Part shown: positions 9,220-10,683 of the stretch, piece by piece
Numbering within the stretch: position 1 is the first letter of the stretch
Layout: each line of letters starts with the position of its first letter
The notes under the pieces: generated by a model
Databases searched by the model: none
Told to the model about the DNA's origin: nothing
The model's input: the letters and a program-made list of their open reading frames with translations, nothing else
Program-made: the position numbers and the translations under genes
Assembly (NCBI GenBank): GCA_013361595.1
Contig: JABFXT010000002.1
Span: 1 to 10,683 of the forward strand
DNA length: 10,683 bases
Origin: Nocardia sp.
Lineage (GTDB): Bacteria > Actinomycetota > Actinomycetes > Mycobacteriales > Mycobacteriaceae
Direction: 5' to 3'

Positions 9220-9249
9220 GGCTGTGTTTTTGGCGCGCTGGCGCGCGCG

Positions 9250-9343
9250 GGGTTGAGGCCCCCTTGGTCTCGCCGTTCAGGCCTCGAGACTCGCGCTTCG
9301 CGCATGCGCTTCGAGGCCTGAACGGCGAGACGGGCCTCAACCC
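9250..9343 (+). repeat. Long palindrome downstream of birA
   Basis: An outer 12-bp stem (gggttgaggccc 9250-9261 with 9332-9343) is stacked on an inner 21-bp perfect stem (9267-9287 with 9311-9331); only a 5-nt bulge interrupts 33 bp of pairing. The loop itself contains the palindrome gcgcatgcgc (9300-9309). It lies 30 nt after the birA stop, so it may terminate birA, but it is much larger than the other hairpins here and looks like a dispersed palindromic element. The IS left end follows about 10 nt later. Confidence 0.75.
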
Positions 9344-9370
9344 TTTGAGGTGTCTCGTAAAACAGTGAGG

Positions 9371-9530
9371 ATGGGTGTGGCCCCGCAGCGGTTGGTCCTG
9401 ACCCTTCGTAAAACTGACCATGGTGTCTTGGCCGAGATCTGTCGGATCGGGTTGCTGCGGGGCCACCGCCCGCACCGGACGTGGTGGCCGTGACCTCATA
9501 GGAGCCTGTTACCGCAGACCCGTCACTGTT
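9371..9530 (+). ncRNA. Predicted IS110 bridge (seek) RNA
   Basis: IS110-group elements express a bridge RNA from the left non-coding end, with one loop for the target and one for the donor. Here gtggccccgcagc (9377-9389) and gctgcggggccac (9454-9466) form a perfect 13-bp stem around a 64-nt internal region with smaller hairpins (tggtc/gacca 9393-9397 with 9416-9420; ccga/tcgg 9432-9435 with 9442-9445). Inside it, ggtgtct (9422-9428) equals the left flank plus CT core (9349-9355), fitting a left target guide. gtcg (9441-9444) is complementary to the right-flank cgac (10677-10680), fitting a right target guide. In a second loop closed by gtgac/gtcac (9490-9494 with 9522-9526), cataggagc (9497-9505) equals the right end (10664-10672), fitting a left donor guide. 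The 3' limit is uncertain. Confidence 0.65.
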
Positions 9531-9600
9531 CTGTCCGCCCGCCCGGCTGGTGCGTGCCGCCCCACTCAATCGGTCGAGAAGCAGGACGGACCTTTCCAGC

Positions 9601-10659
9601 ATGACCCATCACGAACCCGAAGTCGAAGCCGAAGTCACCGGTGGTGTCGACACCCACCGCGATACCCACACCGCGGCGGTGCTCGACCCGCTCGGGCGGG
9701 TGCTGGGCACCGCGCAGTTCGTTGCCGGCGCCGCCGGTTACACGGCGTTGCTGGCATGGATGTGCGGGTTCGGGCGAGTAACCCGGGTCGGTGTCGAAGG
9801 CTGCGGCGCCTACGGCGCCGGACTGGCCGCGAGCCTGGCCGAGCAGTCGGTGACCGTGGTAGAGGTCGATCGACCCGGCCGGAGAACCCGCCGCTTCCAG
9901 GGCAAATCCGACCCGATCGACGCGATCGAAGCAGCACGGGCCACGCTGGCCGGCCACCGCACCGGCACACCGAAACAACGTGACGGCGGTGTCGAAGCGG
10001 TCCGGGTTCTGCGCATCGCGCGCCGATCCGCGGTCACCGCACGCGCCGACGCCCAACGCCGGATCAAAGCGTTGATCGTCACCGCGCCCGAGCACCTGCG
10101 GGCCCGGCTCCGCGGCCTCACCGATACCGCACTGATCACCACCTGCGCCGGGATGCGTCCCGGCCGCGCCGAGACCGGGTCACCGACCGGCGCGACGAAA
10201 ACCGCGTTGCGGTCGCTGGCGCGTCGTCACCAGCAACTCACCGTCGAGATCACCGACCTCGAGGAACTACTCGACCCGCTGGTCGCCGCGATCAACCCGG
10301 GCCTGGTCACCGCCCACGGCGTCGGCACCGACACCGCCGGCCAGCTCCTGGTCACCGCCGGACACAACCACCGCCGGATCCGTTCCGAAGCCGCGTTCGC
10401 ACGACTCTGCGGGGCCGCACCCATCCCGGCCTCCTCCGGACGCACCCACCGCCACCGCCTCAACAGAGGCGGCGACCGGCAAGCCAACGCCGCCCTGCAC
10501 CGCATAGCGATCACCCGGCTGCGCTGGGACCCGGCCACCCGCGCCTACGCCGAGAAACGCACCACACAAGGCCTAACCAAAAAAGAGATCATCCGCTGCC
10601 TCAAACGCTATATCGCACGCGAGATCTACCACCTCATCACCAACCCACCCACCACTTGA
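9601..10659 (+). CDS. IS110-family DEDD/serine recombinase (transposase)
   Basis: A 352-residue, uninterrupted protein. The N-terminal RuvC-like domain (about 10-165) has the DEDD residues: Asp17 in GVDTHRDTH, Glu66 in GVEGCGAYG, and Asp104/Asp107 in KSDPIDA. A coiled-coil-like helix (about 200-225) follows, then the C-terminal transposase_20-type domain: GVGTDTAGQLL (240-250), AFARLCGAAPIPASSG (265-280) with the candidate catalytic Ser278/279, RLNRGGDRQANAALH (286-300), and LTKKEIIRCLKRYIAREIY (325-343). With its bridge RNA it would carry out excision to a circle and RNA-guided insertion. ATG 9601 is chosen over an in-frame GTG at 9550 because the shorter form begins at the usual distance from the first Asp; the ribosome site (AGGACGGA, 9583-9590) is modest and 10 nt away. 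Confidence 0.95.
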   Translation: MTHHEPEVEAEVTGGVDTHRDTHTAAVLDPLGRVLGTAQFVAGAAGYTALLAWMCGFGRVTRVGVEGCGAYGAGLAASLAEQSVTVVEVDRPGRRTRRFQGKSDPIDAIEAARATLAGHRTGTPKQRDGGVEAVRVLRIARRSAVTARADAQRRIKALIVTAPEHLRARLRGLTDTALITTCAGMRPGRAETGSPTGATKTALRSLARRHQQLTVEITDLEELLDPLVAAINPGLVTAHGVGTDTAGQLLVTAGHNHRRIRSEAAFARLCGAAPIPASSGRTHRHRLNRGGDRQANAALHRIAITRLRWDPATRAYAEKRTTQGLTKKEIIRCLKRYIAREIYHLITNPPTT

Positions 10660-10661
10660 CA
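10656..10661 (+). promoter_or_regulatory. Outward -35 box at the IS right end
   Basis: A perfect TTGACA overlaps the recombinase stop codon and points out of the element. On the excised circle it would sit 17 nt before TAAAAC (9358-9363) of the left end, driving the bridge RNA and recombinase. In the integrated state it could pair with a flanking -10 beyond this window. Confidence 0.6.
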
Positions 10662-10683
10662 TCCATAGGAGCATCTCGACGCA

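Follow-up and report, generated by a model that had tools for sequence, protein, structure and literature searches.

The window, the whole 10,683-nucleotide stretch of Nocardia sp. contig JABFXT010000002.1 that we analysed (contig C374 of genome G000), carries at its end an insertion sequence that runs from A9364 to C10675 and, judging by its domains and ends, is a member of the IS110 group of the IS110 family. Its 352-residue product matches the Pfam models DEDD_Tnp_IS110 and Transposase_20, indicating a RuvC-like DEDD recombinase, and scores 151.6 bits against the NCBIfam IS110 model NF033542 (cut-off, 140); the ISCro4 transposase, whose structure has been solved (9t56), is a weak sequence match (E 3.2e-6). 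A long palindromic repeat forms the left flank, and eight bases of right flank precede the end of the contig. The element and its surroundings comprise the following features.

9236..9354 (no strand), long palindromic (REP-like) repeat forming the left flank, with the insertion at its right rim (repeat matches; empty copies uninterrupted at the insertion point)
9355..9363 (+), left target, positions 1-9 (TCGTAAAAC; guide match, empty sites)
9364..9368 (+), right donor, positions 10-14 (AGTGA), the first bases of the element (kept in relatives, variable before; empty sites)
9601..10659 (+), IS110 recombinase (DEDD_Tnp_IS110, Transposase_20; domain-model matches)
10664..10675 (+), left donor and right end CATAGGAGCATC, its last base the shared C10675 (right ends of relatives, alignment)
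10676..10683 (+), right target TCGACGCA (TCGAC follows CTCGTA[A/G]AAC in 12 empty copies; contig end)

The non-coding ends are unequal in length: 237 bases, which hold the putative RNA, precede the ATG and 16 follow the stop codon. When upstream regions were aligned, 27 of 29 were conserved from (A/G)(C/T)AG(T/A)GA onward and variable before it, the exceptions (L038 and L041) having other sequence at that point and left ends further upstream. The left boundary proposed in a first-pass annotation of the window lies too far to the left. Right ends read ATC in 24 of 25 sequences (ATT in L064) and in all six further right ends, which were found by alignment instead; later pattern searches required GACATCCATAGGAGCATC and so are uninformative about variation there. 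The first and last 60 bases contain no long terminal inverted repeats, their longest exact inverted match being 7 bases and lying more than 25 bases inside both ends. Target duplication beyond the core is absent, and comparison with empty sites leaves one shared base. We rejected assignment to the IS1111 group, in which the RNA and the long non-coding end would lie downstream of tnp; here the RNA is upstream and the right end is 16 bases. A second copy, 81% identical, is present on contig C531 of the same genome and a third left end lies at the edge of contig C305, both adjoining the same kind of palindrome. In five relatives (L051, L053, L054, L058 and L067), the right end is found roughly 200 to 800 bases past the point where the recombinase match stops, and additional sequence may therefore be present in these copies.

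The left end is predicted to encode a bridge RNA made up of target and donor parts.

9374..9558 (+), bridge RNA with putative ends (consensus fold of family RNAs)
9379..9402 (+), target-loop stem, 5′ arm (helix 1: 17/22 pairs changed on both sides)
9441..9464 (+), target-loop stem, 3′ arm (helix 1, partner of 9379-9402)
9416..9427 (+), target-loop apical hairpin, GAC/GUC (helix 2: 100% of cells paired, 1/3 pairs changed on both sides)
9468..9478 (+), donor-loop outer stem, 5′ arm (helix 3)
9547..9557 (+), donor-loop outer stem, 3′ arm (helix 3)

In a consensus fold of 31 family RNAs, 97% of cells are paired and 20 of 48 pairs are changed on both sides. None of 500 shuffles reached any of five measures, and slid versions were at most 42% paired. 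The support comes mainly from the target stem (17 of its 22 pairs), the donor helices being nearly invariant. The stem-loop described in the first-pass annotation is present, with 9379-9402 pairing with 9441-9464 through compensatory changes that go beyond chance, and both the domain models and the 31-RNA fold agree with its reading of an IS110-group element whose left end, upstream of the recombinase, holds a bridge RNA. Helix 5 of the consensus fold joins one donor guide to the other (9498-9503 with 9523-9529), and none of its pairs is changed on both sides; an open donor loop is therefore an assumption taken from IS621, and it is assumed here that the donor guides open to read DNA. The window RNA folded alone has an unexceptional energy (z -0.6 and -1.3), and an Rfam search returned no family at its cut-off.

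A regex scan of 166 sequences yielded 43 elements with a left end and RNA, the window's included; four RNA matches lacking a recognised left end were excluded. Comparison of these elements located the guides of the target part, neither of which is paired in the consensus fold.

9406..9414 (+), left target guide TCGUAAAAC (9/9 to the flank here)
9430..9436 (+), right target guide GGCCGAG, pairing with CTCGGCC (signal at the first, second and fifth base past the core)
9437..9438 (+), putative handshake bases AU of the target loop, able to pair with AT at donor positions 7-8 (GAT unchanged in 31 RNAs; right ends ATC)

TCGTAAAAC is a direct repeat, at 9355-9363 and 9406-9414, that matches at 9/9 positions, where about 0.0009 such repeats are expected by chance in the 237-base non-coding region. 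Across the family, the RNA segment that joins the stem to the apical hairpin covaries with the left flank: the match averages 8.69 of 10 in 42 elements, against a permuted maximum of 6.55 (5,000 permutations), and is 9/9 in 26 and 8/9 in 14 of the 43, these copies not all being independent and representing 27 distinct targets and 24 distinct guides. Between the window and C531, position 7 is A versus G, and flank, guide and handshake base change together. The right target guide is weaker than the left, fitting at five of seven positions in the window and six of seven at C531. Among 28 elements, agreement reaches 93% versus 56% permuted at the first base past the core, 71% versus 43% at the second and 57% versus 26% at the fifth, and is near the permuted level at bases 3, 4 and 6 (23 elements for the sixth). 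The order of the guides, target before donor, and their polarity, with left guides equal to the top strand and right guides complementary to it, had been read correctly in the first pass. The sequences then chosen as target guides do exist: ggtgtct is present at 9422-9428 and in the left flank (9349-9355), but is not the left target guide, belonging instead to the conserved hairpin, whose 3′ arm it includes (G55, C57 and T59, counted along the first row of the alignment, are invariant in 31 RNAs with differing flanks), and gtcg is present at 9441-9444, but is not supported as a right target guide, lying as it does in a conserved GAUCUGUCGG stretch.

The insertion point can be read from uninterrupted copies of the repeat, which is found on 38 contigs of the same genome including the window's (40 of 63 candidates scored). 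A first comparison gave seven element-free palindrome copies reading CTCGTA[A/G]AAC|TCGAC; a pattern search of the genome gave 12 such empty sites, those seven included, and none with the reversed pattern. The repeat end lies upstream in 11 of the 12 (L204 is without it); L200 and L203, at contig edges, have only about a dozen bases of upstream repeat. Two variant empty sites, L178 and L189, read CTCGTAAAAC|TCGGCAC and CTCGTAAGAC|TCGGTTC; sites of this TCGG type fit the right target guide better and resemble the C531 site (CTCGTAAGAC|TCGGCAC). Given that empty copies read CTCGTA[A/G]AAC^TCGAC or a close variant, the window target is TCGTAAAAC^TCGACGCA, at the palindrome rim. At positions 8-9 the target has AC and the donor TC, so C9363 is the sole base shared with the donor junction GGAGCATC|AGTGA, and the CT core proposed earlier was rejected in view of the empty sites. 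The programmed target proposed with it lacks GTAAAACT, which the empty sites carry inside that supposed target. Nine empty palindrome copies (7 + 2), read without requiring AACTCGAC in a reading that did look for CGTA, have AACTCGAC or GTAGAACT/GTAAGACT; the proposed target GGTGTCTCGAC occurs once among 244 sequences, in an unrelated genome. Several contigs start or stop near a copy of the 9236-9354 repeat family.

The donor part contains two further guides and a second set of handshake bases.

9497..9505 (+), left donor guide CAUAGGAGC (repeated exactly at 10664-10672)
9523..9528 (+), right donor guide UCACUG (fully complementary to C9363-A9368)
9529..9530 (+), donor-loop handshake bases UU, facing A8 and A7 of the target (covariation in 38 elements)

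The left donor guide CATAGGAGC had been recognised in the first pass and is upheld here: cataggagc occurs at both 9497-9505 and 10664-10672, recurs in relatives and exceeds chance. It matches the right end through position 6 only, with mismatches at positions 7-9, and covariation between the two was sought in six elements and none was seen. The right donor guide, which had been called poor, is TCACTG at 9523-9528, a perfect match that covaries in relatives. It is a perfect complement in 35 of 38 elements, as TCACTG with CAGTGA (18) or TCTCTG with CAGAGA (17), the imperfect cases being TCACTG with TAGTGA (2) and CCACTG with CAGTGA (1); these counts leave out a spurious pattern match, TCACTGGAC. 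In 5 of the 43 elements the pattern found no donor part, and by eye these sequences look truncated or rearranged. According to Hiraizumi et al. (PMC11208158), bases beside the right guides pair with the partner DNA after exchange. In our set, the donor-loop handshake faces target position 8 as A-U in 37 of 38 elements and G-U in one, and position 7 as G-C in 34, A-U in three (the window, L050 and L055) and C-C in one (L042). Because position 8 is A in the target and T in the donor, we infer that each right guide is better matched to the product than to the substrate.

Taken together, the data indicate that the locus very probably holds an IS110-group element with a left-end bridge RNA, inserted by means of its guides into the rim of a palindromic repeat. 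The left end would encode the RNA with its target and donor parts, the donor guides (9497-9505 and 9523-9528) would pair with the joined ends ...CATAGGAGCATC-AGTGA..., and the recombinase would exchange strands after position 9, carrying the element into the rim of the multi-copy repeat; the handshake bases beside both right guides would then pair with partner DNA. Transcription of the RNA, its binding, the position of cleavage and catalysis are steps that we infer from sequence.

It is very improbable that the flank repeat in the left end is a DNA-level att repeat read by the protein, or a duplication, with no RNA guiding. The repeat is direct and about 50 bp away, as slippage can produce, and L053 has a 51-base duplication there; yet covariation of the match extends over 24 distinct guides and 27 distinct targets, its place in a fold that shows compensatory changes is fixed, the right donor guide is complementary and itself covaries, and so do the handshake bases. 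The first-pass model (GGTGTCT as left target guide, CT as core, gaggtgtCTcgacg as target and a right donor guide that is weak) has almost no chance of being correct: although its 7-mer occurs in the flank and the RNA region in the right order, it overlaps a hairpin that is conserved whatever the flank, the empty sites have GTAAAACT inside its supposed target, another left guide matches 9/9 and covaries, and the same RNA beside other flanks, which the annotation had named as evidence against itself, strikes its own guide, the C531 RNA keeping GGTGTCT next to a GGGGGCCTCG flank. On these sequence comparisons, three of its four guides are wrong, as are its left boundary, core and target.

Joining of the ends would also bring together a promoter-like site.

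10656..10661 (+), -35-like box TTGACA in the right end, which overlaps the stop codon of tnp (joined-end comparison)
9367..9372 (+), -10-like box GAGGAT, 17 bases after TTGACA once the ends are joined (joined-end comparison)

The resulting TTGACA-N17-GAGGAT site could express the RNA and recombinase from the circle. A TTGACA-N17-box arrangement is present in 28 of 29 joined ends (GAGGAT 13, GATGAT 13, GAGTAT 1, GATGGT 1), a count in which some right ends came from a pattern containing GACA; the remaining junction, L055, has TAGACA. The target-part fold, the covariation of guides and handshake bases, the empty sites and the junction boxes are demonstrated by comparison of natural sequences, in which guides, targets, empty sites and handshake bases are visible together, with guide switching between relatives.

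The element resembles IS621 in its IS110-group membership, left-end RNA, target guides before donor guides and guide polarity, as well as in its handshake bases, promoter-like site from joined ends and REP-type target (PMC11208160, PMC11208158). Its target sequence differs, and unlike IS621, which has a shared CT core, it has AC in the target and TC in the donor, with one base in common, and the handshake would reach position 8 (same reports). An IS621-type core, that is, a dinucleotide that target and donor share and all four guides include, was not found; only C9 is shared and the left donor guide is mismatched at positions 7-9, which makes this a variant of the IS621 scheme, the target and donor cores agreeing at one of their two bases and differing at the other. 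The upstream non-coding RNA that reads both target strands, and natural redirection through guide changes between relatives, recall the seekRNAs of ISEc21 and ISMch6 (PMC11187229); those elements target sites within IS3-family transposase genes, whereas the site here is a palindrome rim and in relatives is often a gene end. Insertion tied to repetitive extragenic palindromes is shared with ISPpu9, ISPpu10 and ISPa11 (PMC1525189), which are Pseudomonas elements, whereas the one described here is from an actinobacterium and its relatives in our set mostly carry another kind of guide. REP targeting by IS110 elements was already known (PMC1525189; IS621, PMC11208160).

Unexpectedly, guide positions 6-8 are TGA in 33 of 43 RNAs and TAA in 2 of 43, and the window's guide is not one of these 35. 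For 37 elements the flank covers 300 bases or more, and in 30 of them a stop triplet occupies target positions 6-8. In 17 of these 37, a frame that looks coding (80 codons or longer, with GC above 75% and highest at third positions and lowest at second positions) terminates exactly at the target, versus 3 of 162 generic TGAC/TAAC sites in the same flanks. That most insertion sites are gene ends, as counted with any open frame, was rejected, this stricter test having cut the share to 17/37. Among guide-like sites ACNNCTGACC in G962, 8 of 30 (the first 30 listed of 171) are gene ends, a share that does not differ significantly from 17/37 (p = 0.13), and the guide sequence may therefore explain much of the gene-end excess.

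Frames of at least 60 codons end at the target in 26 cases; 20 were compared with Pfam, giving 12 above the cut-off, one only below it (L039) and seven with no match. Domains reaching the last few residues include TerD, SRP54, Y_phosphatase3 and DUF427, and the SRP54-domain frame is presumably FtsY-like. The end of traB is the insertion point in an annotated Embleya plasmid. Inspected by eye, six of 143 matching plasmid records comprised three with a stop triplet at an intact left end (L208, L209 and L212), one without it (L210) and two in which an intact left end is absent (L211 and L213). In a recombinase tree of 34 of 46 rows, from which 12 short or poor proteins (L209 among them) were dropped, the two palindrome-aimed copies form one supported pair inside a supported, mainly TGA group, and the two TAA elements (L050 and L055) belong to separate supported groups; with a midpoint root and open inner forks, the tree gives no direction of change.

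We lean slightly towards explaining gene-end siting by selection against other insertions, with the guide TGA held by the handshake (G7, A8) and by descent, and no advantage in reading stops. The G962 comparison fits this explanation, as do the 20 of 37 insertions that fail the gene-end test, some of them out of frame, whereas TAA guides with a handshake U in two separate supported groups (L050 and L055), both at coding-like stops, a further TAA guide in L209 (by eye) and the scarcity of gene ends among generic sites speak against it. Tentatively, and with some doubt, we raise the idea that the guides of an actinobacterial IS110 lineage have become adapted to the stop codons of their hosts (TGA or, together with a matching handshake base, TAA on separate branches). 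Such elements would insert at gene ends without protein change, even at a presumed ftsY-like gene, and the window's branch would have been redirected to a palindrome present in many copies. That a strategy of homing to stop codons has evolved is possible on these sequences and, if real, would mean that an RNA-guided element found many harmless sites through a feature present in every gene. Among the open-access papers listed by our searches, none was seen to describe stop codons as targets of IS110 elements; neither PMC11208160 nor PMC11187229 has 'stop codon' in its main text, and where PMC11187229 once mentions a 'termination codon' it is that of tnp.

Fragments of the left end are also present elsewhere. 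Remnants in L162 (G115) and L163 (G061) follow the element as far as the core base of the left target guide, where the match ends; another, L164 (G061), stops at that base together with its contig. The 51-base duplication in L053 (Frankia) has the same breakpoint as these remnants. As the guide DNA mimics the left target, self-targeting or slippage may cause such remnants and the duplication; the remnants broken at the guide core may reflect self-targeting, in too few cases to claim it. In L043:1718-1759, the left end is tandemly duplicated, with a 21-base unit (ACAGAGATGATGTTCATGAGC).
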